DNA of 32,286 bases from contig CADAPG010000011.1 of the NCBI GenBank assembly GCA_902789675.1, positions 1 through 32,286 on the forward strand. Reading direction: 5' to 3'. Both the position numbers and the translations under genes were made by a program. Positions 151 through 30,412 of the stretch are shown piece after piece; within the stretch, counting starts at the first letter, position 1; each line of letters starts with the position of its first letter. Origin of the DNA: an uncultured Eubacteriales bacterium (GTDB taxonomy: Bacteria > Bacillota > Clostridia > Christensenellales > CAG-138). A model generated the notes under the pieces. That model was not told the DNA's origin, did no database searches, and saw nothing but the letters and a program-made list of their open reading frames with translations.

Positions 151-1338
151 TCAGAATTCGAGGTTCCTGTCGGTTTCCTTGGAGAAGACGTGTACGACGT
201 TGCCCTTGAAGCCGAAGCGGACGGGATCGCCCATCCGGAAGTTGCCCTTCATATCGACCGTCGGAACAATAATAATGACGTCACGGTTCTCCGCCGTGAT
301 ATGCAGATGGACCGAGGATCCCATCATTTCCGCGACGTCGACGGTTCCGGCTACACCGCCGTTCTCGTCGAGGTCGGTGTGCTCGGGACGAACGCCCAGA
401 GTGATCGCCTGCGGTTCGACCTTGTTTGCCGCAAGGCGTTCCTGCTTGTCTTCGGCAAGCCTGACCTTTTCGTCGGCGAGTTTTACAAAGTATCTGCCGT
501 TTTCAAGCAGCAGCTCCGCGTCGAAGAAGTTCATGACAGGCATGCCGATGAAGCCCGCGACAAACAGGTTTGCCGGGTGGTTGAACACCTCCTGCGGCGT
601 GCCGATCTGCTGGACATACCCGTCGCGCATGATGACAATGCGATCGCCGAGCGTCATTGCCTCGGTCTGGTCGTGGGTGACGTAGATGAACGTCGTGTCG
701 ATGCGCTCGCGGAGCTTCAGAATCTCGGCGCGCATTTCGTTACGGAGCTTTGCGTCGAGGTTCGAAAGCGGTTCGTCCATCAGCATGACCTTCGGCGCGC
801 GGACGATCGCTCTGCCGATTGCGACACGCTGTCTCTGACCGCCGGAAAGCGCCTTTGGTTTGCGGTCGAGGTACTGCGTGATGTCGAGGATCTCCGCCGC
901 CTGCCGAACTTTCTGCTCGATCTCGGCTTTGGGGACATGACGAAGCTTCAGTGCGAACGCCATGTTCTCGCGCACGGTCATGTGCGGATACAGCGCATAG
1001 TTCTGGAAGACCATTGCGATATCGCGGTCTTTCGGCGCGACGTCATTCACGAGCTTGCCGTCGATATACAGTTCACCGCCGGAGATCTCCTCGAGCCCTG
1101 CAACCATGCGCAGCGTCGTGGATTTGCCGCAGCCGGACGGTCCGACGAGCACGATGAATTCCTTGTCTGCGATATCCAGATTGAACTCCTGCACCGCGAC
1201 AACGCCTTCGTCCGTGATCTGCAGATTGATTTTTTTCTTCTCAGGTTCGTTTGCTTTCTGCTTCTTGCTCTTCTTTTTCTGTTCGCCGGAAACGAACGGA
1301 TAAACCTTCTTGAGATTCACAAGTTTGACTTCTGACAT
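151..1338 (-). CDS. msmK: Sugar ABC transporter ATP-binding protein (MsmK/UgpC type)
   Basis: This is the cytoplasmic ATPase that powers carbohydrate ABC importers of the CUT1 class, and it probably serves the permease pair encoded at 10.2-12.1 kb, which has no ATPase of its own. Using the ATG at 1338 the protein has 395 residues. Walker A (GPSGCGKST) is at 66-74, the LSGGQ signature at 164-168, Walker B (MLMDEP) at 185-190, the H-loop His at about 222, and a TOBE-like regulatory tail follows from about residue 300. A lysine-rich insert at about 18-37 interrupts the first strands; I recall similar inserts in clostridial MsmK proteins. An upstream in-frame GTG at 1422 would add 28 non-conserved residues, so I prefer 1338, although no good ribosome binding site lies directly before it. 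One such ATPase often serves several transporters. Confidence 0.93.
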   Translation of the reverse strand: MSEVKLVNLKKVYPFVSGEQKKKSKKQKANEPEKKKINLQITDEGVVAVQEFNLDIADKEFIVLVGPSGCGKSTTLRMVAGLEEISGGELYIDGKLVNDVAPKDRDIAMVFQNYALYPHMTVRENMAFALKLRHVPKAEIEQKVRQAAEILDITQYLDRKPKALSGGQRQRVAIGRAIVRAPKVMLMDEPLSNLDAKLRNEMRAEILKLRERIDTTFIYVTHDQTEAMTLGDRIVIMRDGYVQQIGTPQEVFNHPANLFVAGFIGMPVMNFFDAELLLENGRYFVKLADEKVRLAEDKQERLAANKVEPQAITLGVRPEHTDLDENGGVAGTVDVAEMMGSSVHLHITAENRDVIIIVPTVDMKGNFRMGDPVRFGFKGNVVHVFSKETDRNLEF

Positions 1339-1350
1339 AAGCTTTGGCTC

Positions 1351-1460
1351 AGGACGTTTGACATCCGCCCGAAACGTCCTCGCAGTCACCATCCGGTGCG
1401 CTGCATTACGACAGGTCTCCACACTGCCGCACCCCGAGCCGAGGGAAAATATCCTCCTTT
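1351..1460 (-). promoter_or_regulatory. msmK leader: inverted repeat and displaced Shine-Dalgarno
   Basis: A perfect 9-bp inverted repeat (AGGACGTTT at 1351-1359, AAACGTCCT at 1372-1380) ends 12 nt before the preferred ATG at 1338. A strong AAAGGAGGA lies at about 1452-1460, more than 110 nt upstream of that ATG, with no start codon at normal distance in the right frame. The leader may fold to control translation, or an insertion may have separated the ribosome binding site from the gene. Which of these is true cannot be settled from sequence alone. Confidence 0.4.
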
Positions 1461-1522: not shown

Positions 1523-3892
1523 TCAGTCGAAAATGCTGCTCATGGATGCCACATACAGCTCGGTGATTTTCACCTCGCCGGCGGCAAACAATTCGATTGC
1601 TTTGGAGTCTTTCTGTTCGGGATAGGCACGGATCGAAATCGCTTTGTAATCGTTGAAATATGCTTCGACCAGCGAACGGTCGATGTAGATCTCCATCGTG
1701 ATCGTTCCGTCCTCATTCGGCAATGCGCCGGAAACGGCTTTCGCCTTGGCGCCTTCGCCTTTGTTCTCGGTCATGCCGTGAACGGTTTCGTTCGCAACAT
1801 CGTAAGTGATCTTCGTTTCGTCCCATCTGCCGCCCTTCAGCATCGTGATGCCGAATTCCTGCGCCTTGGAAACGTCCGCAACGATACGGATATACAGAAG
1901 ATCGTCGTTGACATCGGCGAACGCTGCGTTCGCTTCGTCGATCGTTACGTTCTTTTTGTCGATCCAGACTTTATCCTCCAGAGTATGGAGTGCTTCGATC
2001 GGCTCCATCATGAGGTCGGTGCCCTCGTCGTTCAGGAAGATACGTCTTGCAAGCCCCACGGTATGCGCCCAGCCGGACGCGCCCTGTTCGGCGGCGCCGC
2101 GCTGATCCTGCATAATAGAGAACATATAGATGTTTCCGCTTACGGGATCGACGAGACAGCTCGGTCCGGTGAAGACGTTCGCGCCGTAGTCCAGGAGATG
2201 CGGTTCGCCCCGGAACGCTTCGTCCGGTGTGAACTTGCCTGTCTCGAGATCGAAGTCGCCGAGCCAGTAATAGACCTTGTTGTCCGCAATGCTGGCGGGC
2301 GCCGGGCTGATCTCAAAGAAATACTTTGTGATCGTGCCCGCATTGTTGGTCACCGGCAGGATGATCGGAAGCTCCCAGCTCGTACCGTACAGTGCGCTCT
2401 GATTCTGCATTTCGTATACGGGACCGCGATACTGCCAGTTCATTTCCACGTGATCGCCCTGCAGTTCCAGCGTATCGGTGGTGTACAGCAGTGCCGTGCC
2501 GCCCTTCGATCCGGTCGCGCCGGAGCAGATCAGCATGCACCAGGTTTCGCCCTCTTTCCAGATATGCGGATCGCGGAACTCGCCCGGTCTGCCCTGCCCC
2601 TGCTGCTGAATGAGTGCAAGATCCTTTCCGATGATCCATTCGGTCAGTTCGGGATCATTGAGATCCTTCGGCCATGCGACGCCGATGTTCTGATTCGAGA
2701 TCAGTCCCGGCGTATTGCGGAAGCTGTCGTTGCCTGCCGTGAAGAACAGCAGCGGAACACCGTTCCTGTCGAGCGTTGCACCGCCGGACCAGACGCCGTC
2801 CGGAACGACGGAATCCTCGGTGGGCGTGATCGCCTCCCTGATCGGCTTCCAGTTGACCATGTCGGTGCTGACATAGTGTCCCCAGCAGATATTCCGCCAG
2901 TAGGACCCCGTCATGTTTGCCTGATAGAACAAGTGGTACACGCCGTTGTAATAGACCGGCGCGTGCGGTTCGTTCATCCAGAACTGGTACGGACCGCCGT
3001 GGAACTGCGTACGCGTATAATCGTCCTGCAGGATGTTCTGGAGCCAGATCTGATCGAAGTCGATCTCCGGAACCGCAACACTCTTATAGTAGTCGGCAAT
3101 CTCCTGTTCGGTAAGCGCCGCACCGTAGAGCTTGACCTCATCAAGATAGCCGCTTGCCACATTGAGGTACCCCGCCGTCAGGCGTTCCGCGTCCGTGTTG
3201 CGTCCGACAACCAGTGCCGTGCGCTTTGCGGGAGCGATTTCCGCGTCCTTTTCGACGGAGCGGGATGCGACCATTTCACCGTTCAGATACAGCGCCATTT
3301 CGCCTGCATCCGCATCGAACGTCGCCGTTACGAGATTCCATGCGTACTTTTTGAGGTTGTCGCCGTTTGACCAGACGGTCAGCCAGTCGTCGCCGGTGCC
3401 GACCTGGAACGTCAGTCTGCCGAAGCGCTCATAGCCGAGCAGAAAGCCCTGCTTGTTCGCCTTGTTCGCCTGACTGATGATGCCCGTCGGGGAATCGGTA
3501 CCGTTGTCCGCAGCGTTCGGATCGTCCCACTCAAAGGTACGCGGCGCGATCCATGCCTGCACGGTCAGTGCTTTGCCCGATACCTGAATGTCGTTGCGGT
3601 TGTACTGCACATAGGTGGACGAGCCGTCCAGCAGCAGACAGCCGCCGTTGATGCCGTCCGTTCTCCATTCCGGATCCCGGTCGTCCATGTACGCGGCGCC
3701 GTGATACGCATAGTTCATGTCGGTATCCGGCACCTTGCCCGCGGCGTCGGTGACTGTTAAGCCTTTGCCCTCATCAAACTTGAGGTACAAAAGCAGGTCC
3801 TTTTCGTGCTTGTCCTTCCCCCCGCCGGCGCAGGCGGTCAGAATGACCGCCGCCAGCAGAAGTGTGCACAGAACTGTGAGGATCTTTTTCAT
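1523..3892 (-). CDS. Surface GH32 lipoprotein with LamG domain and variant nucleophile motif
   Basis: This is a predicted exported lipoprotein of 789 residues, with lipobox LTAC and lipid-bearing Cys21. Residues about 30-270 form a LamG/concanavalin-like module. The GH32 five-bladed propeller runs from about 295 to 610, followed by a C-terminal beta-sandwich to 789. GH32 enzymes cleave fructosyl linkages in sucrose, inulin or levan. The RDP motif is present (440-442) and the acid/base Glu is probably Glu507 in WELP. The usual WMNDPN nucleophile motif instead reads WMNEPH (305-310), placing Glu308 where Asp is expected. A strong GGGAGGG precedes the ATG. The gene starts 25 nt after the three-module lipoprotein gene and probably shares its transcript. 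It could be a fructanase of a divergent GH32 branch or a binding protein that has lost activity. Confidence 0.88.
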   Translation of the reverse strand: MKKILTVLCTLLLAAVILTACAGGGKDKHEKDLLLYLKFDEGKGLTVTDAAGKVPDTDMNYAYHGAAYMDDRDPEWRTDGINGGCLLLDGSSTYVQYNRNDIQVSGKALTVQAWIAPRTFEWDDPNAADNGTDSPTGIISQANKANKQGFLLGYERFGRLTFQVGTGDDWLTVWSNGDNLKKYAWNLVTATFDADAGEMALYLNGEMVASRSVEKDAEIAPAKRTALVVGRNTDAERLTAGYLNVASGYLDEVKLYGAALTEQEIADYYKSVAVPEIDFDQIWLQNILQDDYTRTQFHGGPYQFWMNEPHAPVYYNGVYHLFYQANMTGSYWRNICWGHYVSTDMVNWKPIREAITPTEDSVVPDGVWSGGATLDRNGVPLLFFTAGNDSFRNTPGLISNQNIGVAWPKDLNDPELTEWIIGKDLALIQQQGQGRPGEFRDPHIWKEGETWCMLICSGATGSKGGTALLYTTDTLELQGDHVEMNWQYRGPVYEMQNQSALYGTSWELPIILPVTNNAGTITKYFFEISPAPASIADNKVYYWLGDFDLETGKFTPDEAFRGEPHLLDYGANVFTGPSCLVDPVSGNIYMFSIMQDQRGAAEQGASGWAHTVGLARRIFLNDEGTDLMMEPIEALHTLEDKVWIDKKNVTIDEANAAFADVNDDLLYIRIVADVSKAQEFGITMLKGGRWDETKITYDVANETVHGMTENKGEGAKAKAVSGALPNEDGTITMEIYIDRSLVEAYFNDYKAISIRAYPEQKDSKAIELFAAGEVKITELYVASMSSIFD

Positions 3893-3917: not shown

Positions 3918-6107
3918 TTATGCTGCGAGATTTTCCGCCAGCTGCCACGGGATCTGAATTTCGCCAGCCTGATTGCCGTCCATGACGGTATCGAAGAGGT
4001 TTGCGTAATCCGGCGCGGTCTCGTAATAGGTGACGACCTCGTCAAAGAAGCCGTGCGCCCAGCCGCCGTCGATGACTTCGTCATGCAGCTCGATGTAGAG
4101 CTCCTGACCGAGGTATGCACTGAGATCGATGACATAGGTGCCCATGTCCGCCCAGGAACCGCCCTGACCGACCGACGGGAAGAACTCGTCGTGGAAGCGG
4201 GTCTGCTTATAATAGCCGATCTGCGTGCCGTCCGCGGTGAATACCTTGACCGCAGCCGCAGCGCCGCCCATACGGACGGAGATGAAGCCGGAGCCGGAAA
4301 GCGTGAAGGTCGTGGAACGGATCGCCCACGGATCGGGTTCGCCGATACCGGTGTTCCAGCCGTCAAGATGGAAGCTGCCCGCCTGATTGTACGGAAGCGC
4401 TTCGCCCCAGTAGCTTTCTGCGGAGATGACGCCCGGATACTGTCCGTCGACCTTCGCCCATGCGTCGGTGAGGATCGTCCAGCCCGCGAGGTTGCCGCTC
4501 TCAAAGCCGCCGTTTGCGATCTCCTTATGATCCGCCATCGCAACGACTGTGAACGCGGTCTCGACGGTCTTGCCGTTGTACTCCGCACCGTAGGTGACCG
4601 TATAGAAGCCCGGTGCGCTCATGTCGAAGGCGTCAAAGCCCTCGGTAGCCTCGTTGCCTTCAAACGCGACCTTGGTGATCGCAACCGGTACGTCTTCGCT
4701 GCCGAACGCTGCTTTTGCATCCGCGACGAACGCCGTGAGGTCCACGGTGCCGCAGTCGACGACCTGATTGTCCGCATATGCGGTCAGCGTCAGCGACTGA
4801 AGCGGTACGGGGTACGGATAGTTGGTGTAGTAATTTCTGAGATTGGTAAGGTCGTCATAGGACGGCGAGTTGTAGGTCTCGTTCTGGATCTTTTCCATCT
4901 GCTCGACCTCCAGAGCCGCGACTTCGTCCTTGGTCAGCGACACGCGGAAGTCATCGACGTTGATGAACGCGAAGCCGCCCTTGCTGGTATCGTTGTCGTC
5001 AACAACCTTGATGTAGCAGACTCTGCCGATGTACTCGCTCGCATCCATGTAGTAACGGAGCAGGGTCAGCGCAAGCGCCGGATCCGAGAAGTAGGTGTTC
5101 TCCTGCTTGATCAGCTCTTCATCGGTGTTGCCGTCGCAAAGCGCCACATAGGAACCGCCGTTTCCGGAGCCCATCATGAAGGTGATGAAGCCGTCGCCGC
5201 CGAGTGTGAACTTGGTGGAACGGATGGAACCGAGAAGCGTCTCCTGGATCGCGCCGTTGTTGGAACCGTCGAGGTAATATTCGCCCTCGCCGTAGACCAT
5301 ACGGTCATTCCAGTACATCTGCGAGGTGGGCACGATCGCCGAGCGGGTCAGCGCGGTGCCGTCAAGGAGCAGCCAACCGGTGAGGTCGCCGGTCTCAAAT
5401 CCGCCGTTTTCAATCGTGTTGGACGTTTCGTCCTCAACAAACGGCTTCGGACCGAACTCGGCGAACTGACGGTCATGCTCCGCCTTCGCCGCGTCGACTT
5501 CCGCCTGATCCCTGCAAACCTTGAACGCGTCGAGGTTCAGCCAGGAAACGTCGTTGCCGTCGTCGTTGTCAGTGACAACGATGTAGATCGTCTTTCCGAC
5601 ATACGCGGACAGATCTACGACCTTGGTCAGAAGATGATCGGTGATGAACACGCCGTCGCATTCGTCGTTCACGACTTTTGCGATTGCCTCGTCATTGCCC
5701 TGCTCAAAGAACTCGACATAGCACTTTTCGGTGTTCTTGCCGCCGCCCATCTTGAATGTGATGAAGCCGTTACCGCCGAGTTTGAACGGATCGGAGGTCA
5801 GTGTGCCGCGCATTGCCGGGTTGCCGCCGACCGTGCCCGCAAAGAAGTACGTGCCGTTCTTTTCGATCGGTGCGCCGTTCACCTTCTCCGCATCGGTAAC
5901 GCCGCGGAAGTTGAACGCGGCGTCTTTACGCGTCCAGCCGACCCACGCGCCGGAGGACACGTCTTCAAAATCGCCGTTTACGATGTCGTCCGCAACAACA
6001 GCTTCCGGCTTATCGCTGCCGCCGGCATTACCGTAGCACGCGACCACGCTGAAAACCATAAGGACAACAATCAGCACAGCAAACATACGGTGCAAATTTG
6101 ATTTCAT
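3918..6107 (-). CDS. Lipoprotein with three repeated carbohydrate-binding-like modules
   Basis: The 729-residue protein is exported and lipid-anchored (lipobox VVAC, Cys24). It holds three related beta-sandwich modules at about 43-197, 232-390 and 531-695. Each opens with NG[DG]FE...GW and carries an internal [KT]LxGxGFI[ST] stretch, a pattern typical of galactose-binding-like CBMs. An Ig-like domain sits at about 436-524. No catalytic domain is visible. It is the first gene after a LacI-controlled promoter, and the GH32 lipoprotein follows 25 nt downstream, so a role in holding fructan at the cell surface is likely. Large clostridial levanases can carry similar modules in front of LamG-GH32, so this pair may be a split version of one. 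The start at 6107 is chosen because GAGGGAG precedes it; an upstream ATG at 6164 would put 19 residues in front of the signal peptide. Confidence 0.85.
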   Translation of the reverse strand: MKSNLHRMFAVLIVVLMVFSVVACYGNAGGSDKPEAVVADDIVNGDFEDVSSGAWVGWTRKDAAFNFRGVTDAEKVNGAPIEKNGTYFFAGTVGGNPAMRGTLTSDPFKLGGNGFITFKMGGGKNTEKCYVEFFEQGNDEAIAKVVNDECDGVFITDHLLTKVVDLSAYVGKTIYIVVTDNDDGNDVSWLNLDAFKVCRDQAEVDAAKAEHDRQFAEFGPKPFVEDETSNTIENGGFETGDLTGWLLLDGTALTRSAIVPTSQMYWNDRMVYGEGEYYLDGSNNGAIQETLLGSIRSTKFTLGGDGFITFMMGSGNGGSYVALCDGNTDEELIKQENTYFSDPALALTLLRYYMDASEYIGRVCYIKVVDDNDTSKGGFAFINVDDFRVSLTKDEVAALEVEQMEKIQNETYNSPSYDDLTNLRNYYTNYPYPVPLQSLTLTAYADNQVVDCGTVDLTAFVADAKAAFGSEDVPVAITKVAFEGNEATEGFDAFDMSAPGFYTVTYGAEYNGKTVETAFTVVAMADHKEIANGGFESGNLAGWTILTDAWAKVDGQYPGVISAESYWGEALPYNQAGSFHLDGWNTGIGEPDPWAIRSTTFTLSGSGFISVRMGGAAAAVKVFTADGTQIGYYKQTRFHDEFFPSVGQGGSWADMGTYVIDLSAYLGQELYIELHDEVIDGGWAHGFFDEVVTYYETAPDYANLFDTVMDGNQAGEIQIPWQLAENLAA

Positions 6108-6200
6108 AAATACTCCCTCTCTAAGAAAATCGGATAGTGTTTTTTCCGCATTTTTGGTGAGCATGCGGACGACAGGTGGTTTTAGATCGGTCTGATATCG

Positions 6201-8921: not shown

Positions 8922-9911
8922 TTATTTCAGCGTCGTTCCGCCGCATTCATAACGCACGGGCAGGCAGAGCAATGACGGGATCTGACCGGGATCGGTGTTC
9001 AGAATCATATTCACGCAGGTTTCCGCGATCGCGTCCACGGGCTGCACGATGGTGGAACAAACCAATTCCATATCTCCGAACTGCCGGATTCCGTCAAAAC
9101 CGATGATCTGTACATCCTCCGGAACTCTGAGTCCCATTTCTTTCAGCGTTCCGCGGATCTGATAAGCGACCGAATCCGTTACGCAGAACAGCCCGTCGTA
9201 ATCCAGCTTCCCGTTATGAAAATGCGCGTGCAGGAAATCGACAAATTCCTGATACGGCGCACCATCCTCCAGATTCATCTGATCGCAGGCAAGTCCCATC
9301 GCCTCGCAGCCCGCAACAAATCCGTCACGGCGTTTTGCCGGCTCATGCGGCAGTTTACTTGCGATCCGCAGCATGGCGACGCATTTGCAGCCGTTTTCCT
9401 TCAGCTTCTCGGCGGCAAGATATCCGCCGCCGTAGTTGTCGCTTGAAACGCACGGGATCTTTGCGCCGAAATAGCGGTCGATCGAAACAAGCGGAATATC
9501 TTCAGACAGTTCAAGTCTGGGGTTGTAGCTCAAACAGATGATGCCGTCCACCTTTTGCTGTTCCGCAAGGCGTACGTATTCCTGTTCCTGATCCGGATCG
9601 TAATCGGTCCCGAAGAACACCATATAATGTTTTCTTGCTGCAAGGGTTTTGCCGAGGCTGTTCACGAGCGACGCAAAATAGGGACTGACCAGATTGGGCA
9701 TAATCACCGCAATCGCCCGCGTTTTGCCGCTTTTCATGCCCTGCGCATAGCTGTTGACCCGATAGTTCAGTTTTTTGATCGTCTTTTCCACCCGGATGCG
9801 ATATTCCTCGCCGACCGGAATCCCGTTGACGACCTTTGACACCGTTCCGAGCGCAACGCCCGCTTCGCGCGCGACGTCGTTCATCGTCGGGTTGTTCCCC
9901 TTCTTTGCCAT
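8922..9911 (-). CDS. LacI-family transcriptional regulator
   Basis: This is a 329-residue DNA-binding repressor with an N-terminal helix-turn-helix at about 10-30 (MNDVAREAG...GTVSKVVNG), a hinge near 50-60 and a periplasmic-binding-like effector domain (about 62-329) that would bind a sugar or sugar phosphate. GGAGG precedes the ATG. Its own promoter carries an operator between -35 and -10, and the same operator occurs at the ABC/GH32/fructokinase promoter and at the lipoprotein promoter. It is therefore the probable local regulator of the fructan locus and of itself. The inducer cannot be read from sequence; fructose, sucrose or a short fructoside are the reasonable candidates. Four envelope genes follow in the same operon. 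Confidence 0.93.
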   Translation of the reverse strand: MAKKGNNPTMNDVAREAGVALGTVSKVVNGIPVGEEYRIRVEKTIKKLNYRVNSYAQGMKSGKTRAIAVIMPNLVSPYFASLVNSLGKTLAARKHYMVFFGTDYDPDQEQEYVRLAEQQKVDGIICLSYNPRLELSEDIPLVSIDRYFGAKIPCVSSDNYGGGYLAAEKLKENGCKCVAMLRIASKLPHEPAKRRDGFVAGCEAMGLACDQMNLEDGAPYQEFVDFLHAHFHNGKLDYDGLFCVTDSVAYQIRGTLKEMGLRVPEDVQIIGFDGIRQFGDMELVCSTIVQPVDAIAETCVNMILNTDPGQIPSLLCLPVRYECGGTTLK

Positions 9912-10067: not shown

Positions 10068-10126
10068 TTGACAAATCCGGTTGGTTCGTGATATTATAAC
10101 AACGGTTTTAGATGTAACGTTTCACG
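10068..10126 (+). promoter_or_regulatory. Promoter and operator O4 of the ABC/GH32/fructokinase operon
   Basis: TTGACA (10068-10073) and TATTAT (10092-10097) are 18 nt apart. The operator TGTAACGTTTCACG (10113-10126) lies 16 nt beyond the -10 box. About 107 nt of leader follow before the first gene. I see no known riboswitch there. The arrangement matches the lipoprotein promoter, which has its operator in the same downstream position. Confidence 0.82.
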
Positions 10127-10233
10127 CTGCTCGCATCTTTCATCGCACAGGCCGGTGACCCGACGGTGAAAAGGCGGGCTATTGGAGTCACTTCACTTAT
10201 CCTCGCACTTATGGAATTAAGGAGGGATCCCCT

Positions 10234-11178
10234 GTGAGCACTGTCACAAAAGCTGAGGGGAAGAAAGTCAAGCCGCTGAAGCACGGAAAGTCGCTCGGTC
10301 GCCGAATTATGGAGAACTGGCAGCTTTATCTCATGCTTCTGATTCCGATTGCGATCACGATCGTTTATAAGTACATCCCGATGTACGGCATTCAGATCGC
10401 CTTCCGCAATTATAAACCCGCACAGGGCTTCTTCGGAAGCAAGTGGGTCGGACTCGACTGGTTTGAACGGTTCTTTACGGCACCGACGTTCGGCAGAATG
10501 ATCAAAAACACCGTCCTGCTTTCCACACTGTCCCTGCTGTTCAGCTTCCCCGTTCCCATTCTGTTGGCGCTCGCCATCAACCAACTTCGTTTCAAGCGCT
10601 ATAAGAGAGTGGTGCAGACCGTTCTCTACGCGCCGCACTTCATTTCCATCATGGTTGTTTGCGGTATGATCCGCATCTTCCTCTCCCCCTACGGCGGTCT
10701 CATCAATCTGATTTTCGGAAACCAGATCGATTACATGACGCTGCCCGAGGCGTTCCGTCCCATCTACATCATATCCGGTATCTGGCAGGATGCAGGCTGG
10801 GGCACCATCATCTACCTCGCGACGCTGTCCGCGGTCGACCCCGGTCTCTATGAGGCGGCGAAGATCGACGGCGCATCCATGTTCCAGCGCATCCGCGTCA
10901 TCGACGTTCCGGAATTGATCCCGATGGTCATTCTGCAGCTGATCATGGCGGTATCCGGCATCATGAGCGTCGGCTTTGAAAAGGTCTTCCTTCTTCAGAC
11001 CCAGCTCAACAAGGCGACAAGCGACGTCATCGCGGTCTATGTATACGAACAAGGTATCGTAGACCACGCGTACAGCTACTCCACGGCAATCGGTCTTTTC
11101 AACACGGTCATCAACATCATCCTGCTGGTGGTCGTCAACAAGATCGCAAAGAAAGCCGCGGACGTCAGCTTCGTGTAA
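10234..11178 (+). CDS. lplB: ABC sugar transporter permease 1 (LplB type)
   Basis: This is an inner-membrane permease subunit of a CUT1 carbohydrate importer, with 314 residues and about six membrane helices. The EAA loop that docks the ATPase is visible as EAAKIDGAS at about 208-216. The start is GTG at 10234, with AAGGAGGGA about 8 nt upstream. Four residue blocks typical of LplB are recognisable, including the YKYIPMYGIQIAFRNYKP region near residue 50. It is the first gene of the operon, followed 12 nt later by the second permease. The likely cargo is an oligofructoside or sucrose-like sugar because of the GH32 and fructokinase genes behind it. No ATPase lies in the operon, so the MsmK-like protein probably serves it. 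Confidence 0.93.
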   Translation: MSTVTKAEGKKVKPLKHGKSLGRRIMENWQLYLMLLIPIAITIVYKYIPMYGIQIAFRNYKPAQGFFGSKWVGLDWFERFFTAPTFGRMIKNTVLLSTLSLLFSFPVPILLALAINQLRFKRYKRVVQTVLYAPHFISIMVVCGMIRIFLSPYGGLINLIFGNQIDYMTLPEAFRPIYIISGIWQDAGWGTIIYLATLSAVDPGLYEAAKIDGASMFQRIRVIDVPELIPMVILQLIMAVSGIMSVGFEKVFLLQTQLNKATSDVIAVYVYEQGIVDHAYSYSTAIGLFNTVINIILLVVVNKIAKKAADVSFV

Positions 11179-11190
11179 GGAGGGTTCGAC

Positions 11191-12081
11191 ATGAAGAGAA
11201 AACAAGGTATGCACACCATGTCGGATAAAGCCAGCGATATCGTGCTGGTCGTCCTGACGGCTCTGATCATGCTGATCATCGCCTATCCGCTTTATTACGT
11301 CGTCGTTGCGTCGGTCTCCGATCCGTACGATGTATATGCAGGCAAAACGTTCCTGATCCCGAGCCAGTTCACGCTGGAAGGCTATAAAATGGTGTTCAAG
11401 AACTCCAGCCTTTTCAACGGATTTTTGCACTCTATCCTGTACACCGTGCTCGGTACGGTCTTCTCCGTCGCAATGGTCTATCTCACGGCGTTCCCGCTGA
11501 GCAAGAAAAAACTGCCGGGCAGAAAGTGGATCTCCATTTTCTTCATCATTACGATGTACTTCGGCGGCGGTCTGATCCCGACCTACCTGGTCGTCCGCGA
11601 CACCGGGCTTCTGAACACGATGTGGGCGCTGTTCCTGCCGGGCGGCGTTGCAATGGGCAACGTCATTATCGTCAGAAACTTCTTCGAGAACAACATCCCG
11701 AAGGAACTGTATGAAGCGGCGGAAATCGACGGCGCAAACGACTTCACGACGTTCTGGCGCATCGTGGTTCCGCTCTCCCGTTCCATCATGGCGGTTATCG
11801 TCGTCTTCTCGATGGTCGCCTACTGGAACGACTGGTTCACCGCGTTGATCTACCTCCAGAAAGATCAGTATCCCTTCCCGCTCGTGCTGAGAGGCATTCT
11901 GATTACGTCTGAAGCAATGACGCAAATGACCGGCGGTATGAGCTACGCCGAGTCGAACCGTATCTCCGAGCTCGTCAAGTTCGCTTCCATGATCGTGGCG
12001 GCGGCGCCGATGCTCATCCTCTACCCCTTCGTTCAGAAATACTTCGAGCAGGGCTTTATGTCCGGCGCGGTGAAGGGCTAA
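11191..12081 (+). CDS. ytcP: ABC sugar transporter permease 2 (YtcP type)
   Basis: This second permease of the importer has 296 residues and about six membrane helices. The EAA motif reads EAAEIDGAND at about 178-187, and the long loop before it carries the GGGLIPTYLVV region usual for YtcP-like proteins. AAGGAGG lies 8 nt before the ATG. It pairs with the LplB-type subunit to form the channel. It sits between the first permease (12-nt gap) and the binding protein (21-nt gap), so the transporter genes form one translational block. Substrate specificity lies mainly with the binding protein. Confidence 0.93.
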   Translation: MKRKQGMHTMSDKASDIVLVVLTALIMLIIAYPLYYVVVASVSDPYDVYAGKTFLIPSQFTLEGYKMVFKNSSLFNGFLHSILYTVLGTVFSVAMVYLTAFPLSKKKLPGRKWISIFFIITMYFGGGLIPTYLVVRDTGLLNTMWALFLPGGVAMGNVIIVRNFFENNIPKELYEAAEIDGANDFTTFWRIVVPLSRSIMAVIVVFSMVAYWNDWFTALIYLQKDQYPFPLVLRGILITSEAMTQMTGGMSYAESNRISELVKFASMIVAAAPMLILYPFVQKYFEQGFMSGAVKG

Positions 12082-12102
12082 TTCATAAAAAGGAGAAACA
12101 AC

Positions 12103-13743
12103 ATGAAGAAAGTACTTTCCATTGCACTTGCACTCATTATGGTGCTCGGCATCGTCGCATGCGGCGGCGGCAACAAGCCGGCGGAGATCAACCCCGATCA
12201 GACCGACTTTCTGATCGTCGGCGGCATGTCCGTTCTGTCGAGCGGCAACGACTCGAACCCGGTTCTTGTTGAACTTGCGGAAAAAGCAGGCGTCGAGATC
12301 GAATGGGACCTCATGAGCGACTCGCTCGGTGAGAAGGTCGGTGTTCTGATCGGCGGCAACCAGCTGCCCGACGCGTTCATCGCGGTCGGATTCTCGCAGA
12401 ACGACATCAACGAATACGGCAGCGACGGCACGTTCATCGACCTCACGCCGTACATCACTCCCGAGATCATGCCGAATCTGTGCGCGATCTTCGAGAAGCA
12501 TCCGAACATCAAATCCGGCATCACGCAGGCGGACGGCAAGATTTACGGTCTGCCCTCCGGCGAGCTGATGGGCACCGCGGCAATCGGTGCGACCGATGAT
12601 CTTTCGATTTACGCGGTTCCGGAGTTCTCCATGATCAACAAGACCTGGCTCGACGAACTCGGTCTTCCGGTTCCCACGAATCTGACCGAGCTCCACGATG
12701 CGCTCGTCGCTTTCCGCGATAACGATATGGCGACAAGAAACGGCAACGGCGCAGGCTCCACGATCCCGATGTCCACCGGCTTCGACCAGTGGTGCTGGGG
12801 TCAGGAGATCTTCTATGCGGGCTTCGGCTTCACGAACTTCACCAGCGATATCTGCTTCGACCTGCTGGCGAAGCCGGACGGCACCGTGGAATTCGTGAGT
12901 GCGACCGACGCCTATCGCGATGCGGTCACCTATTTCCATGACTGGTATGCCGAAGGTCTCATGGACCTCGAAATGTTCTCCCAGAGCACCTCGCAGCTGA
13001 TCGCAAAGGTCTCGCAGGGACGCGTCGGCGTCACGACCTGGTGGGAGATCAAGGAAATTGCGGGCGACTATACCGATGATTTCGTATTCATGCCCCCGCT
13101 GTACGGGCCGAAGGGCACCAAGTATGAGAATACCCGCAACCTGACGATCCGCTCGGGCCCGGGCGTTACCTCCGGCAACTTCAACATCACTTCCGCCTGC
13201 GGCAATCCCGAACTGCTCCTGAAGTACTTCGATCAGTGGTATGATCCCGAAGTCGTCATGCAGCTCCAGTACGGTCCGATCGGCATTTACTACACCGAGA
13301 AGGATGCGAACGGTGTCTGGCAGACCATCACGGATGACGCCGCAAAGGCACAGTTCGGCAAGAGTGCCGGCGAGCTCAAGGCACAGTATGAAGTCTACGG
13401 TCCGCGTCTGATCCTCGCAGAGTACTACAACAAGGTATTCTACATGGAAGACCGCGCAACGCAGCGTCTGCATGATATCGAGGAGATCTGGATGCCCTAC
13501 GTTGAAGCACCCGTCTACTATCCGAACGACGTCACGTTCACCGATGAAGAGCTCGAAATCATCAGCCGTTATAAGGCAGACTTCGTTTCCCAGGTCGCAG
13601 AATATGAAGGCACCTGGCTCAAGAACGGCGGACCGACCGACGCTGAATGGGATGCGTATCTCAAGATGCTGAAAGACAACTGCGGCATGGATCGCCTGCT
13701 TGCTGTCTATCAGGATGCGTACACCCGTTATCTCGGCAGATAA
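12103..13743 (+). CDS. Extracellular sugar-binding lipoprotein of the ABC importer
   Basis: This is the substrate-binding component, 546 residues long, exported and lipid-anchored (lipobox IVAC with Cys20, then a glycine-rich linker). The length and the LplB/YtcP partners fit the large family-1 binding proteins of Bacillota. A conserved GxTTWWE stretch is visible in the middle of the protein. AAAGGAG precedes the ATG. It captures the sugar at the cell surface and delivers it to the permeases. The GH32 and fructokinase genes downstream suggest a fructoside. A stable hairpin follows its stop codon and probably separates its expression from that of the enzymes, which is common for abundant binding proteins. 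Confidence 0.93.
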   Translation: MKKVLSIALALIMVLGIVACGGGNKPAEINPDQTDFLIVGGMSVLSSGNDSNPVLVELAEKAGVEIEWDLMSDSLGEKVGVLIGGNQLPDAFIAVGFSQNDINEYGSDGTFIDLTPYITPEIMPNLCAIFEKHPNIKSGITQADGKIYGLPSGELMGTAAIGATDDLSIYAVPEFSMINKTWLDELGLPVPTNLTELHDALVAFRDNDMATRNGNGAGSTIPMSTGFDQWCWGQEIFYAGFGFTNFTSDICFDLLAKPDGTVEFVSATDAYRDAVTYFHDWYAEGLMDLEMFSQSTSQLIAKVSQGRVGVTTWWEIKEIAGDYTDDFVFMPPLYGPKGTKYENTRNLTIRSGPGVTSGNFNITSACGNPELLLKYFDQWYDPEVVMQLQYGPIGIYYTEKDANGVWQTITDDAAKAQFGKSAGELKAQYEVYGPRLILAEYYNKVFYMEDRATQRLHDIEEIWMPYVEAPVYYPNDVTFTDEELEIISRYKADFVSQVAEYEGTWLKNGGPTDAEWDAYLKMLKDNCGMDRLLAVYQDAYTRYLGR

Positions 13744-13765
13744 TCTCTATCCCTCCTATTGGATG

Positions 13766-13801
13766 TACAGCGGCCGCATCGGAAGGGATGCGGCTGCTGT
13801 A
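13766..13801 (+). promoter_or_regulatory. Intercistronic hairpin between binding protein and GH32
   Basis: A 15-bp stem (13766-13780 with 13787-13801), broken only by one G-T wobble, encloses a 6-nt loop. It is followed by TTAAAAGTTTT rather than a clean T run. It lies 22 nt after the binding-protein stop and 26 nt before the GH32 start. It may be a partial terminator or a 3' stabiliser that raises the level of the upstream transporter mRNA. Confidence 0.7.
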
Positions 13802-13827
13802 TTAAAAGTTTTATAAGGAGCACCACC

Positions 13828-15306
13828 ATGAAAGACAAATTGCAGAGAGCCCGTTTATTTGAACAGAAATATCATCCGAATCTGTCGAAGTTCGACCAGC
13901 CGCGTTTTCACGTGACCGGCGGCATAGGCTGGATCAATGATCCGAACGGTTTCTCCGTCTATCAAGGCGAGTACCATCTTTTCTATCAGTATTATCCCTA
14001 TGATACCAAATGGGGTCCGATGCACTGGGGACATGTCAAGACATCCGATTTTATCAGGTGGAACCGTCTTCCCTGCGCGCTTGCACCGGAAGAAAGCTAC
14101 GACAAGGATGGATGCTTCTCCGGCGGAGCGATCGAACTCCCGGACGGACGGCATCTCCTGATGTACACCGGTGTGCGAAACAAACGCCGTTCCAACGGCG
14201 TCGTCGACGGATATCAGACGCAGTGCCTTGCTGTCGGCGACGGAACGAACTACAAAAAATACGAGGGCAATCCCGTTCTGGACGCAAAGGATCTTCCGGA
14301 GGGCGGCAGTCCGATCGACTTCCGCGATCCGAAGATCTGGTTTGAGGACGGTAAATACTGGGCGGTGATCGGAAACCGCCCCGCAGACGGCAGCGGCTCG
14401 ATTCTGCTGTTTGAGAGCGAAAACGGATTTCAGTGGAAGTTCTCCTCCGTTCTCTCGTCCTGTCATAATCAATACGGCAAGATGTGGGAATGTCCCGATT
14501 TCTTTGAACTGGACGGAAAACATGTACTGTTGACCAGTCCGCAGAATATGACCTCAATGGGACTGGAATTTCATCCCGGCAACAGTACGCTCTGTATCAT
14601 CGGGAGATACGACCGTGATCGACGTCATCTGCTGCGCGACAACACGCAGGCGATCGATTACGGCACGGATTTCTATGCGACGCAGTCTCTTCTGTCGCTT
14701 GACGGAAGGCGCATCATGATCGCATGGATGCAGAGCTGGGAATCCTCCGGCTGCAAGCTGAAGGGCCTCCCCTTCTGCGGTCAAATGACACTGCCGCGCG
14801 AGCTCTCGATCCGCGACGGACGGCTCATTCAGAATCCGGTTCGTGAGATTGAAGCATACCGTTCTACGAAAGTCAGCTACCGGAACGTCATGATCTCAGA
14901 CGAAACGAACCTGCAGGGCGTTTTCGGGCGTTTCCTTGACATGACCGTCACCGTTCGTCCCTCCAACCGCGAACATATGTATCGCTATTTCAAGATCTTT
15001 GTTGCAAAGGACGGCGAGCGCGTCACAATGATCCGGCACAAACCGGAAAACAACACGATCCGCGTCGACAGAAGCCGTTCCGGTTTCCCGCATGACATCG
15101 TCAATGTCCGTGATTTTCCGATCGCATCGCATAACGAACTGAAGCTGCGGCTTATCATGGATCGCTACAGTCTGGAATTGTTTGTCAACGACGGCGAGCA
15201 GTCGGCGTCCTTCGTTCTCTACACGCCTGTCAGCGCCGATTCCATCTCCTTTTCCTGCGACGGTGCGGCAATCATTGACGTTGAAAAGTACGATATTGAG
15301 GTATAA
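13828..15306 (+). CDS. Cytoplasmic GH32 fructosidase (sucrose-6-phosphate hydrolase/fructanase-like)
   Basis: The 492-residue enzyme has no signal peptide and should act on imported fructosides, releasing fructose. All three GH32 catalytic motifs are intact: WINDPN (35-40, nucleophile Asp38), FRDP (Asp167, transition-state stabiliser) and WECPD (acid/base Glu221). The C-terminal third is the usual beta-sandwich. The start is ATG 13828 with AAGGAG; an earlier ATG at 13759 would lie before the intercistronic hairpin and adds no conserved sequence. The fructokinase gene begins 2 nt after its stop. Because import is by ABC transporter rather than PTS, the substrate is probably not phosphorylated. 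A close paralogue is at 28.9-30.4 kb. Confidence 0.93.
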   Translation: MKDKLQRARLFEQKYHPNLSKFDQPRFHVTGGIGWINDPNGFSVYQGEYHLFYQYYPYDTKWGPMHWGHVKTSDFIRWNRLPCALAPEESYDKDGCFSGGAIELPDGRHLLMYTGVRNKRRSNGVVDGYQTQCLAVGDGTNYKKYEGNPVLDAKDLPEGGSPIDFRDPKIWFEDGKYWAVIGNRPADGSGSILLFESENGFQWKFSSVLSSCHNQYGKMWECPDFFELDGKHVLLTSPQNMTSMGLEFHPGNSTLCIIGRYDRDRRHLLRDNTQAIDYGTDFYATQSLLSLDGRRIMIAWMQSWESSGCKLKGLPFCGQMTLPRELSIRDGRLIQNPVREIEAYRSTKVSYRNVMISDETNLQGVFGRFLDMTVTVRPSNREHMYRYFKIFVAKDGERVTMIRHKPENNTIRVDRSRSGFPHDIVNVRDFPIASHNELKLRLIMDRYSLELFVNDGEQSASFVLYTPVSADSISFSCDGAAIIDVEKYDIEV

Positions 15307-15308
15307 TT

Positions 15309-16271
15309 GTGGAAAAGCAATTCGAAACAGTCGCTCTCGGCGAACTGCTGATCGACTTTACGGAATACGGCACAAGCGAACAAGGCAACCCGCTTTGGGA
15401 GGCGAATCCCGGCGGTGCGCCGTGCAACGTGCTTGCCATGCTGAATAAGCTCAGCAGAAAAACCGCATTCATCGGCAAAGTAGGAAACGACGTCTACGGG
15501 CAGCAGCTCCGAAAAGTCGTGACCGACGCAGGTATTGATACACGTGCGCTGTTCGCCGATCCGGAAGTGCATACGACGCTTGCAGTCGTGCACAAGCTCG
15601 AAAACGGCGACCGCGACTTCTCCTTCTACCGCAATCCCGGCGCGGATATGATGCTGAATGCGGACGATCTTCCTTTCGAACTGTTGCAGGATTGCAGAAT
15701 CTTCCATTTCGGCTCGCTCTCCATGACGCACGACGGCGTACGGGCTGCGACGGAACAGGCGGTGCAATACGCCAAAGCCTGCGGCGCTCTGATCTCCTTT
15801 GATCCGAATCTTCGTCCCCCGCTGTGGAGCAGTCTCGACGAAGCAAAAACGCAGATCGCGTGGGGACTCGCACACGCGGACATTGTGAAGATTGCCGACA
15901 ACGAACTGGAGTTTTTAACCGGTGAGACCGATTTTGACAAGGGCGCGGCGATCCTTCGCAGCCGGTTTCCCAACATCCGGCTCCTGAACGTCACCGCCGG
16001 CCCCGACGGCAGTTACTGTTATTACGGCGATACGCGCGTCTATGTGCCCGCGTTCCTGCTCGGCGGCTCGATCGAAACCACCGGCGCCGGAGACACCTTC
16101 TGCGCCTGTGTGCTGCACGACGTACTCACAAACGGTATTGACAACCGTTCCGAAGAGAGTCTGCGCTCCATGCTTCGCTTTGCCAACGCGGCAGCCTATC
16201 TGGTCACGACCAAAAAAGGCGCGATCCGTTCCATGCCGTCGCTTTCCGAAATCCAGGCGATTCTTTCATGA
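15309..16271 (+). CDS. PfkB-family fructokinase
   Basis: This enzyme phosphorylates fructose with ATP to feed glycolysis. It has 320 residues, the ribokinase-family GGAPCN sugar-binding stretch at 35-40 and the GAGDTF motif with catalytic base Asp262. The start is GTG at 15309, supported by GAGG within the last codons of the GH32 gene, and the 2-nt spacing implies coupling. It is the last gene of the operon; a terminator follows 15 nt after the stop. A second copy at 27.97-28.92 kb is very similar by eye over the whole length. Specificity for fructose is inferred from the GH32 context. Confidence 0.92.
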   Translation: MEKQFETVALGELLIDFTEYGTSEQGNPLWEANPGGAPCNVLAMLNKLSRKTAFIGKVGNDVYGQQLRKVVTDAGIDTRALFADPEVHTTLAVVHKLENGDRDFSFYRNPGADMMLNADDLPFELLQDCRIFHFGSLSMTHDGVRAATEQAVQYAKACGALISFDPNLRPPLWSSLDEAKTQIAWGLAHADIVKIADNELEFLTGETDFDKGAAILRSRFPNIRLLNVTAGPDGSYCYYGDTRVYVPAFLLGGSIETTGAGDTFCACVLHDVLTNGIDNRSEESLRSMLRFANAAAYLVTTKKGAIRSMPSLSEIQAILS

Positions 16272-27966: not shown

Positions 27967-28923
27967 TCAGGATAAAAGTGCCTGCACCTCGGAGAGCGTC
28001 GGCATGGATTTCAGTGCTCCTTTGCGTGTCGTGATGATCGCTGCCGCTGCGTTTGCAAAACGCAGCATGGCGGCAAGGCTTTCTTCGGTTCGATCGGAAA
28101 GACCGTTGTTCAGAATATCGTGCAGAACACACGCACAGAAGGTATCCCCCGCGCCGGTCGTTTCGATCGTTTGTACGCGGAAGCCGGGAACAAAGACGTG
28201 CAGATCGCCGTAAAAGCTGTGACTGCCGTCCGGACCTGCCGTGATGTTCAGAAGCCGGATATTTGGAAACCACGCGCGAAGGATCGCGGCACCCTTTTCA
28301 AAATCGGTCTCGCCGGTCAAAAAGGTCATTTCGTTGTCGGCGATCTTCACGACGTCGCTGTGTTTGAGTCCCCATGCGATCTGCATTTTCGCTTCGTTCA
28401 GGTTGTTCCACAGCGGCTCACGCAGGTTGGGATCGAACGAGATCAACGCGCCTGCGTCCTTTGCGAGATTGAGCGCCGTCTGTGTCGCCGTGCGGCACGG
28501 CTCGTCGGTCAGCGACAGCGAGCCGAAATGGAAGATCCGGCAATCGCCGATCATCTCCTCTTTGAGTTCGTTCGCCGAAAGGGAGACGTCCGCGCCGGGC
28601 TTTCTGTAAAAGCTGAATTCCCGATCACCGTCCGGCAGCGTATGCACAAACGCCAGCGTCGTATGCACGTCCGGATCCTGCAAAAGGCCTTTTGTCTCAA
28701 TGCCGCGTTCCCTGACAGTCTCGATGAGAAGATCGCCGAAGCTGTCCTTCCCCACCTTGCCGAGAAACGCACAGCGTCTGCCGAGATTATTCAGCATTGC
28801 AAGAACGTTGCAAGGCGCGCCGCCCGGATTGACCTCAAGGAGCGGATTGCCCTGCGGGCTCATTCCCGTTTCGGTAAAGTCGATCAAAAGTTCGCCGAGC
28901 GCAACAACATCATACTGTTTCAT
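27967..28923 (-). CDS. PfkB-family fructokinase, second copy
   Basis: This 318-residue sugar kinase contains GGAPCN at 34-39 and GAGD with catalytic Asp260. It is a clear paralogue of the kinase at 15.3-16.3 kb; long blocks such as the one around ADNE-FLTGETDF are nearly the same. GGGAGGAT precedes the ATG at 28923, and the start overlaps the end of the GH32 gene by 14 nt, so the two are coupled. An ATG at 28986 is possible but would lie inside the GH32 gene. The product should phosphorylate fructose released by the neighbouring GH32. Confidence 0.92.
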   Translation of the reverse strand: MKQYDVVALGELLIDFTETGMSPQGNPLLEVNPGGAPCNVLAMLNNLGRRCAFLGKVGKDSFGDLLIETVRERGIETKGLLQDPDVHTTLAFVHTLPDGDREFSFYRKPGADVSLSANELKEEMIGDCRIFHFGSLSLTDEPCRTATQTALNLAKDAGALISFDPNLREPLWNNLNEAKMQIAWGLKHSDVVKIADNEMTFLTGETDFEKGAAILRAWFPNIRLLNITAGPDGSHSFYGDLHVFVPGFRVQTIETTGAGDTFCACVLHDILNNGLSDRTEESLAAMLRFANAAAAIITTRKGALKSMPTLSEVQALLS

Positions 28924-30412
28924 GGTTATCCTCCCAGAGAAGGTCGTATTTCGTAACGTCGATATTGACCGCGCCATCTGCGACAAAGGAGATATCGCTT
29001 GCGGAAAGCTCGGTCAGGATCGTCGCCGTCATAGTTTGCTCGCCGTCGTTGATGAAGATCTCCGCACTGAAGCGGTCGAGAATCAGCCGCAGTTTGATCT
29101 CGCCGTTGCGATTCGGCACCAGACAGCGCCGCTGATGGATGTACGCACGGCGAGAGCCGGAGAACTTGCGGTCGATGCGCAGGATGGATTCGCGCGTACG
29201 ATAGGTGAGTTCCGTGAAGAATTTCTCATTCTGCATAAACCGCACGGCAAAGTTGTGATACATCGGTTCTCCCGGCGCGGGACGCACGGTAATCGTCAGA
29301 TCGACCGTCCTCCCCGTTATCCCGTCCAGGCGCATTTCATCCTCGATGCGGACGTTTTCGTAATGCACGCCGCCGCGGCGGAGTTTTTCCAGCTCCCGGA
29401 TCGGTTGTTGATACAGGCGACCGTTTTTAATGCAAATCTCACGCGGAAGCGACATCTGTCCGAACCATCTGCGATTCTTTCTGCCGGTCAGCTTGGTCGT
29501 GTCCCAGTTCTGCATCCAGCCGATCATGACGCGCCGTCCGTCGGGCATCAGAATCGTCGTCGGCGCATAGAAGTCGATGCCGTAGTCGACCGCATGATCG
29601 CTTTCCGGAATGAACCTGCGGCTTTCTGGATCAAAATGACCGATCAGACACACCGTGCCGTTGCCGTTGTGGTATTCAAAGCCCTCCGGAAGCATATCCT
29701 GCGGGCTGACGAGCAGTACCTGTTTCCCGTCGAGATCAAAATAATCCGGGCATTCCCACATCAAGCCGAGACGTCCGTCGTTTTCGATCAGTATGCCGTC
29801 ATATGCCCATTTGATCCCGTCCGCACTGCGATAACGCAGAAGCTTGCCTAAGCCGTTTTCGTCACAGGAGCCGACGATGCAGAAGAACGTGCCGTCCGCT
29901 TCACGCCAGACTTTGGGATCGCGGAAGTTGTACTTCTCACAGCCGTCCGGCAGATCGCGCTCGGTCAAAACCGGATTGTGCGGGATTTTTTTGTAATCCA
30001 GACCGTCGCCGATCGCAACGCACTGCGTCTGAATGTCCTTGTCGCTCTCGCCGCCCTCTTTGCATACGCCAGTATAGAGCAGCAGATGTCTGCCGTCGTC
30101 CAGCTCGATCGCGCTGCCCGAGAAGCAGCCGAATCCGTCGTATGGTTTATCCGGCGCCATGATTGCGGGCAGATACTCCCAATGCAGTAAATCGGTACTG
30201 ACGGCATGCCCCCAGTGCATGTCGTTCCAAACCGTATCGTATGGATAATACTGATAGAACAAATGGAACTTGCCCTTATAGAAGGAAAATCCGTTCGGAT
30301 CGTTCATCCAGCCGGTATAAGGTGTCAGATGGAACAACGGACGCGCCGTATCGGGAATCAGCTTTGCTGCTTCCTTTTCGTATGCTCTTGCAAACAACAG
30401 TTTTTGCTTCAT
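28910..30412 (-). CDS. Cytoplasmic GH32 fructosidase, second copy
   Basis: This 500-residue enzyme has no signal peptide. The catalytic motifs are complete: WMNDPN (35-40, nucleophile Asp38), FRDP (Asp165) and WECPD (acid/base Glu220), followed by the C-terminal beta-sandwich. It is a diverged paralogue of the GH32 at 13.8-15.3 kb and likewise precedes a fructokinase gene. Its ATG shares one base with the stop codon of the DUF624 gene (TGATG), with GAGGGG upstream. It hydrolyses sucrose or short fructans inside the cell, by family. Having two such enzymes suggests different substrates or different induction. Confidence 0.93.
   Translation of the reverse strand: MKQKLLFARAYEKEAAKLIPDTARPLFHLTPYTGWMNDPNGFSFYKGKFHLFYQYYPYDTVWNDMHWGHAVSTDLLHWEYLPAIMAPDKPYDGFGCFSGSAIELDDGRHLLLYTGVCKEGGESDKDIQTQCVAIGDGLDYKKIPHNPVLTERDLPDGCEKYNFRDPKVWREADGTFFCIVGSCDENGLGKLLRYRSADGIKWAYDGILIENDGRLGLMWECPDYFDLDGKQVLLVSPQDMLPEGFEYHNGNGTVCLIGHFDPESRRFIPESDHAVDYGIDFYAPTTILMPDGRRVMIGWMQNWDTTKLTGRKNRRWFGQMSLPREICIKNGRLYQQPIRELEKLRRGGVHYENVRIEDEMRLDGITGRTVDLTITVRPAPGEPMYHNFAVRFMQNEKFFTELTYRTRESILRIDRKFSGSRRAYIHQRRCLVPNRNGEIKLRLILDRFSAEIFINDGEQTMTATILTELSASDISFVADGAVNIDVTKYDLLWEDNHETV

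Follow-up and report, generated by a model that had tools for sequence, protein, structure and literature searches.

A change of the catalytic nucleophile within a glycosidase family is unusual. In glycoside hydrolase family 32 (GH32), the Asp of the WMNDPNG motif is described as the nucleophile, the Glu of the EC motif as the acid/base and the Asp of the RDP motif as the stabiliser (PMC3360783). The fungal endo-inulinase INU2 has a Glu at the first of these positions, and this residue, Glu43, is named as catalytic or nucleophilic (PMC6042768, PMC5245892, PMC13416181). In other GH32 proteins with an altered nucleophile motif, from Bacillus phages and Clostridium/Sporolactobacillus relatives (WM.D[IV]QR), the Asp is reported to stay while the residues after it vary (PMC4595243). 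Here, we analysed a stretch of 32,286 nucleotides (the window) from an uncultured gut bacterium of the Eubacteriales, in which a gene at positions 1523-3892 of the minus strand encodes a GH32 lipoprotein with a Glu, Glu308, in place of the nucleophilic Asp. It resembles the endo-levanase BT1760 (6R3R), described as a surface-bound endo-acting GH32 of a fructan locus, but BT1760 uses Asp41 (PMC6560043). The Glu substitution itself is already in print for fungal endo-inulinases, a description that the original prediction, made from the sequence of the window alone, had overlooked. Within the literature searched, what appears to be new is a large prokaryotic clade with the NEPH-type motif and the convergence of its pocket with that of INU2.

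The Glu308 site and its conservation

The 789-amino acid (aa) protein starts with a signal carrying the lipobox LTAC, followed by a Laminin_G_3 domain (aa 89-266), a GH32N domain (aa 298-631) and a GH32C domain (aa 644-779). The first is a LamG-type, concanavalin-like module found by domain search at 3095-3628, on the minus strand like every site of this gene. Both GH32 domains are recognised by their profiles (PF00251, 181 bits; PF08244, 65 bits). The translation contains YQFWMNEPHAPVYYNG, with the motif WMNEPHA instead of the usual WMNDPNG; residues ~303-311 correspond to coordinates 2961-2985 and the Glu308 codon, GAA (ttc on the plus strand), to 2969-2971. The predicted WMNEPH reading is thereby confirmed. 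In the alignment, Glu308 stands opposite Asp23 of the Arabidopsis cell-wall invertase AtcwINV1. The canonical Asp of WMNDPNG, a feature that is not universal in GH32, is absent, while a carboxylate is present at the WMN[D/E]P position, as in the solved member with Glu43. By alignment, no other acid occupies the position of Glu308, which speaks against another nucleophile.

As had also been anticipated, the other catalytic residues are retained: Arg440-Asp441 of the RDP motif (2570-2575) and the acid/base Glu507. The latter lies in a WELPI strand, as opposed to the usual WECPD, so that the Cys of the EC motif, found in most Asp-type enzymes, is replaced by Leu508 (codons of 507-508, 2369-2374). 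Two further sites differ from Asp-type enzymes: Thr575-Gly576 (2165-2170) stand where these have Tyr-Ala, in a column that is sensitive to the alignment method, and Ile593 (2114-2116) stands where they have a Trp.

Over all sequences fetched, 524 hits were reduced to 389 full-length ones (at least 440 of 502 columns) and then to 311 distinct domains, the rest being dropped. The nucleophile column of these 311 domains holds Glu in 174, Asp in 137 and nothing else. Arg440, Asp441 and Glu507 are retained in all 174 Glu-type domains. Position 508 is Leu in 153 of them, Met in 14 and Cys in seven; Trp593 is missing from every one and present in 135 of the 137 Asp-type domains. Taken together, Cys508 and Trp593 are both missing in 167/174 Glu-type domains and both present in 130/137 Asp-type domains. 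Tyr at column 575 was found in 67/137 Asp-type domains by the model alignment and in 50/50 representatives by MAFFT L-INS-i, and the latter was used. In this alignment of 44 Glu-type and 50 Asp-type representatives, column 508 holds 33 Leu, eight Met and three Cys against 47 Cys, two Val and one Thr, and column 575 holds 34 Thr, five Leu, three Ser and two Ile against 50 Tyr. Column 576 holds 37 Gly, four Ser and three Ala against 48 Ala, one Ser and one Gly, and column 593 holds 40 Ile, two Val, one Met and one Leu against 50 Trp. INU2 has Val, Asp, Gly and Val at these four columns.

A sequencing or assembly error is ruled out, as the same motif occurs in three relatives (99, 89 and 79% identical) from other assemblies. 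A decayed enzyme is likewise ruled out by the conservation of the remaining catalytic residues.

The AlphaFold2 model of the protein, built from a 60-sequence alignment, has a mean predicted local distance difference test (pLDDT) score of 92.8 and a predicted template modelling (pTM) score of 0.90. It adopts the GH32 fold, a five-bladed propeller and a beta-sandwich: VIA-align matched it to Thermotoga maritima invertase (1UYP; Z 42.7, 427 residues, 2.3 Å), to AtcwINV1 (Z 41.7, 467 residues, 2.2 Å) and to INU2 (Z 39.8, 454 residues, 2.5 Å), with a weaker match to BT1760 (Z 31.5). In Foldseek, the plant fructosyltransferase 3UGF ranked first, closely followed by invertases. The invertases and beta-fructofuranosidases (AtcwINV1 (2QQU), 1UYP, 6NUM and 7VCO) share with the protein the fold, the RDP motif, the acid/base Glu and the W.N.P strand but differ in their Asp nucleophile; AtcwINV1, 6NUM and 7VCO also differ in having the Cys after the acid/base, the Tyr-Ala pair and the Trp. 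The modelled fold cannot tell exo from endo action, nor transfer from hydrolysis.

A prokaryotic clade and its likeness to INU2

A motif pattern scan of named genomes returned at least 120 loci; among those listed, a Glu-type GH32 was recognised by profile in 115 of 120, the other five being chance hits of the pattern. In order to avoid selection on the motif, a profile built from 43 members was also run on whole genomes. Full-length members of the branch of the window protein score at least 499 bits against it and the highest Asp-type protein 373 bits, while a second Glu branch scores 264-364 bits and overlaps the Asp types. Hits below E 1e-150 were obtained in 4/398 genomes of a phylum sample, in 3/391 of a class sample and in 42/197 of the family of genome G279; in one genome set searched, 11 genomes had been picked for their motif loci and one for a plasmid that a protein search had hit. 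On a Limnochordales contig (JADBKP010000010.1; L128, L184), stops interrupt the frame of a Glu-type GH32, and the E-value cut of the genome counts therefore missed this gene.

The Glu does not depend on how the proteins were recruited. Counting as clade members those of at least 450 bits, and as motif-independent those found by profile or protein search, Glu is present in 70/70 motif-independent rows that are not identical to any motif-recruited row, although part of the 70 could stem from genes that the motif had already caught as cut-off fragments. Under the strictest rule (no 30-residue stretch in common with motif-recruited loci) it is present in 19/19, a few of these being two cuts of one gene. 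The 70 rows spell the motif WMNEPHA (50), WMNEAHA (8), WMNEPHG (7), WQNEPGG (2) and WMNESHA (2), with one truncated; because the neighbours vary in rows that all keep the Glu, the Pro and His of the motif are variable while the Glu is fixed.

In a tree of 94 representatives, computed by a quick method with the motif and acid/base columns masked and holding some long branches among the Asp rows, all 44 Glu rows fall on one side of a single branch (SH-like approximate likelihood ratio test (SH-aLRT) 96). One Asp/Glu change is needed on this tree, against a mean of 31 in shuffles, and 0/500 shuffles were as low. The Glu proteins are thus one clade, which spans several bacterial phyla and haloarchaea, and the suggestion of a divergent GH32 branch holds. 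Sub-branch I (WMNE[PAS]HA/G and similar; support 100) includes the window protein and is found in Bacillota, Actinomycetota, Bacteroidota, Pseudomonadota, an Anaerolineae genome and haloarchaea. Sub-branch II (W[TA]NE[PAS][HY]G; support 99) is found in Bacteroidota, Catenovulum, Massilia and Promicromonospora.

The original prediction mentioned NEPH-type relatives, perhaps a known but uncharacterised branch. These are real and widespread, and we found no characterised or solved member, the best solved chain scoring 283 bits against the clade profile. No paper on NEPH-type enzymes was found in the literature searches, which did not cover CAZy. An Arthrobacter endo-inulinase mentioned in PMC13416181 may be a clade member.

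Among the window protein and 59 relatives, a set (A2) picked partly by length, LamG, GH32N and GH32C occur together in 60/60, and a simple pattern finds a lipobox in 21/60; the rest carry different signals or, in numerous Bacillota members, apparently no signal. Asp291, 17 residues upstream of Glu308, is kept in 99% of NEPH rows and in 60/60 of A2.

The solved INU2 chain, 3RWK, carries WMNEPNG and WEVPD. It shares with the window protein the Glu at the nucleophile position (WMNEP), the non-Cys residue after the acid/base Glu (EV), the loss of the Tyr and of the Trp, the Gly replacing Ala and the fold. It differs by NEPNG, as against NEPHA in the window protein, and by a length of 516 aa, that is, without the LamG part. 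Among the columns that are at least 96% conserved in the Asp type, INU2 departs at 4/5 of those given up by the clade and at 1/20 of those kept (Fisher p 0.0019), the compared columns being few and not independent. Since INU2 had been picked for its Glu, the test was repeated without the nucleophile column, with departures at 3/4 and 1/20 (Fisher p 0.008). The Asp-type references AtcwINV1, 6NUM and 7VCO depart at 0/5. When the signature columns are masked, INU2 is placed among Asp-type enzymes (support 99), and a tree that joins it to the Glu clade is rejected (approximately unbiased (AU) test, p 2.7e-5). This quickly computed tree has 51 rows, made up of every second row of both types, the window protein and the sub-branch II rows, six long-branch Asp rows being omitted. 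Because INU2 has the same pocket losses and yet sits elsewhere in the tree, these data argue for convergence: the window protein may work like INU2 without being of its lineage. In exo-inulinases, the pocket is reported to be narrowed by Trp residues and that of endo-inulinases to be wider (PMC6560043); the Trp of column 593 is possibly one of these.

Proposed function and competing readings

Since the Glu is common to a large prokaryotic group and to a fungal endo-inulinase, the window protein is probably a working enzyme that cuts fructan internally, and not a broken one. We propose, with a probability of roughly 0.55, that it is active as a retaining endo-fructanase anchored at the cell surface, in all likelihood one of endo-inulinase type, with Glu308 as the nucleophile, which cuts the polymer at the surface with the help of its neighbours. 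Taken by parts, an active GH32 with a Glu nucleophile is very likely and endo action is likely, while inulin is our best single guess for the substrate, made from the match to INU2, with levan and graminan as alternatives. A changed specificity, as raised in the original prediction, seems plausible as the same substitution and further pocket changes are found in INU2.

The analysis shows the sequence, its conservation, the clade, the convergence at sequence level, the fold and the gene context; the activity, its endo mode, the linkage and the role of each neighbour are what we infer, as follows. Glu308 would act as the nucleophile, Glu507 as the acid/base and Asp441 as the transition-state stabiliser. 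Polymeric fructan would be cut at the cell surface by the anchored enzyme, and the adjoining triple-module lipoprotein would help to hold it. The oligosaccharides would then enter through the ABC (ATP-binding cassette) importer, and their breakdown would be completed in the cytoplasm by the Asp-type GH32 and the PfkB kinase. Within the pocket, the longer Glu would have arrived with losses, the Cys behind the acid/base giving way to Leu or Met, the Tyr mostly to Thr and the Trp mostly to Ile, and this INU2-like package may open the pocket for internal cleavage.

Several points weigh against this proposal. No activity data were found for any clade member, and 7/174 Glu-type domains retain Cys508. 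When the Cys behind the acid/base of KcINU1, an Asp-type exo-inulinase, was changed, no detectable activity is reported to have remained (PMC7545266), so the loss of this Cys must be compensated and the substitution package probably works only as a whole. An Asp is reported at the nucleophile site of 1/61 modelled fungal INU2 homologues (PMC6042768). In addition, INU2 keeps Asn-Gly after Glu-Pro (Asn being at the position of His310), where the clade mostly has His-Ala/Gly, as well as Asp510 and Gly610 of the Asp type; the pockets of INU2 and of the clade are therefore not identical, and the columns compared between them are few. Many Bacillota relatives of ~720-760 aa (e.g. L050, L076, L083, L093) have no visible signal peptide, and a polymer-cutting role for the whole clade hence fits poorly. 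No sought neighbour was recognised within 20 kb of the genes of Glycomyces (L278) and Cellulomonas (L282). Finally, the DUF4960 protein next to the Jejuia gene would point to levan as much as to inulin, as this family has a levan-preferring member (PMC10076258).

That last neighbour also speaks for an endo-levanase, or a graminan-type endo-fructanase, in which the same catalysis by Glu308 would act on fructans with beta-2,6 or mixed linkages, as found in grasses and bacteria. Close relatives with a named source stem from metagenomes of the ruminant gut (water buffalo, L041; sheep, L049), where grass fructan is a likely food. Still, the solved BT1760 relies on Asp, not Glu (PMC6560043), and the Glu package resembles that of an endo-inulinase; we regard this option as unlikely, though worth keeping in view. 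A fructosidase or invertase-like enzyme that would use the Glu as nucleophile but act in exo mode and yield the ordinary products is distinctly unlikely. The best sequence and VIA-align matches are invertases, and the apparently signal-less members would suit an attack on imported oligosaccharides. However, an ordinary Asp-type GH32 for the same job is often adjacent (48/115 loci, within the same fetched stretch of at most 8 kb, a count with no chance control) and sometimes fused, and the Trp of the Asp type is missing throughout the Glu type.

A fructosyltransferase or a cyclising enzyme, of difructose anhydride or cycloinulo-oligosaccharide type, would be quite improbable. Such enzymes exist in GH32, and 3UGF heads the Foldseek rows; moreover, Paenibacillus macerans, which holds clade members (L134, L293), is named under Bacillus macerans as a producer of cycloinulo-oligosaccharide fructanotransferase (CFTase) (PMC4835578). 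Like the window protein, the CFTase of P. macerans is a GH32 with extra binding modules (PMC10076258), and its genus is rich in clade members. However, the P. macerans clade member, with 762 aa, is not a protein of the large size expected for CFTase, and the probable CFTase of strain MER 50.2, identified by size and species, is Asp-type, with SASDPNG and WECP. This P. macerans protein has 1316 aa (L312, 3259-7206, minus strand); an Asp-type SASDPNG protein of 1329 aa in a relative (L253, 8959-12945, plus strand) is probably also a CFTase by the same reasoning. The 1316-aa protein was matched on the large size that we take CFTases to have, and no record names it as one; as this P. macerans protein of fitting size is presumably the CFTase and is Asp-type, a characterised CFTase as clade member was tentatively rejected. 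Lastly, a catalytically dead fructan-binding protein, an option of the original prediction to which the changed nucleophile residue, the surface lipoprotein signal and the attached LamG module would lend themselves, is hardly credible and not supported, because Arg440, Asp441 and Glu507 are conserved in 174/174 Glu-type domains, and a crystallised enzyme with Glu at this site is described as an endo-inulinase.

Returning to the endo-fructanase proposal, a broader and more tentative view, which we hold at less than even odds, is that Asp gave way to Glu at least twice in GH32, once in fungi and once in an ancestor of the very widespread prokaryotic clade, and that both events brought the same pocket changes. 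The substitution would mark a switch to endo action recognisable from sequence alone. The clade in prokaryotes might then be an undescribed subfamily and, in gut Clostridia and soil Paenibacillus, a main type of endo-inulinase. At present, clade proteins are annotated by generic GH32 or sucrose-6-phosphate hydrolase models only; if the Glu marks endo-acting fructanases, annotation could tell enzymes that cut a major dietary fibre internally from those that cut it at the ends. As the nucleophile change appears convergent, it would also offer two independent lineages in which to ask why Asp and Glu nucleophiles suit different modes.

Gene neighbourhood and further members

Directly downstream of the Glu-type GH32 gene lies a MalK/UgpC-type ABC ATPase, recognised by domain match (151-1422, minus strand). 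Directly upstream, across a 25-bp gap, lies a lipoprotein (3918-6164, minus strand) with three modules of ~165 aa, similar to carbohydrate-binding modules (CBMs). These modules match no Pfam family at E 0.01, are homologous to each other and recur in large Glu-type GH32 proteins. Counted as distinct frames, of which overlapping loci may give several per gene, they occur in 60/212 Glu-type (or mixed) GH32 frames versus 5/146 Asp-type frames, and also in 65 frames that have no GH32 and in four whose type is unclear. The model of this lipoprotein (pLDDT 80.1, pTM 0.66) has a fold like CBM61, CBM4-2 (CBM4) and a porphyran-binding CBM, with a best Z of 13.2; because of this predicted resemblance, the module is a candidate for an unnamed fructan-binding module.

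Further along are a LacI-family regulator (8922-9911, minus strand) and a plus-strand group made of two ABC permeases with BPD_transp_1 domains (10234-11178 and 11191-12081), the probable solute-binding lipoprotein of the importer (12103-13743), an Asp-type GH32 (13759-15306) and a PfkB-family kinase, probably a fructokinase (15309-16271). The solute-binding lipoprotein has no Pfam family and is assigned from its position, its lipobox and homologues at the same place. No signal peptide is seen in the Asp-type GH32, which is likely cytoplasmic. A second PfkB-family kinase (27967-28986) and a second Asp-type GH32 (28910-30412) are on the minus strand. Both intact GH32 copies were said to read WMNDPN; this is true of the one at 30.3 kb (WMNDPNG), while the one at 13.8 kb reads WINDPNG. 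At the contig end (31067-32286, minus strand), a further GH32 is apparently broken over two frames: its GH32N part (31779-32285) has a TGA inside the profile match and the following frame has no Pfam match, which could reflect either a pseudogene or faulty assembly. Overall, the genome has five GH32N places. An open frame of 1121 aa (10108-13473, minus strand), which lies opposite the ABC importer genes, seems to result from base composition.

In other genomes, importer genes, LacI, PfkB and Asp-type GH32 are recurrent neighbours of Glu-type genes. Partial sets are seen in Paenibacillus, Butyrivibrio, Anaerolineae and Kribbella, with no second GH32 seen in the fetched Kribbella stretch. Haloarchaeal plasmids with Glu-type genes have an annotated ABC set and a TrmB-type regulator. 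SusC/SusD are found in the Litoribacter and Cesiribacter loci; an Asp-type GH32 is a further component of the Litoribacter and Jejuia loci. Members of Glu sub-branches I and II occur together in the Bacteroidota fructan loci L271, L272 and L273, in which Pfam searches recognised SusC/SusD (L271 and L272) and DUF4960/DUF5018 (L273).

Eight Paenibacillus loci (L050, L076, L083, L093, L105, L113, L136 and L151) encode Glu-type GH32 proteins of ~757-759 aa, seemingly without a signal peptide, which may act in the cytoplasm on imported oligosaccharides. A phage origin was considered and rejected, the motif in two viral contigs lying inside open frames of just 25 and 46 aa, as a chance hit of the pattern. 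A human faecal contig filed as phage, MT837307.1, holds a sub-branch II-like GH32 with WTNETHG (L318, 1294-3483) that scores 364 bits against the clade profile; this contig is more likely of bacterial than of phage origin. Finally, single frames that combine an Asp-type with a Glu-type domain occur in Haloterrigena, Paenibacillus harenae, Metabacillus and Halobacillus, among others (haloarchaea and three Bacillota genera: L006, 17395-21633; L127, 2-4783; L084, 2-4012; L153, 2255-7999), an arrangement that suggests two activities on one chain.

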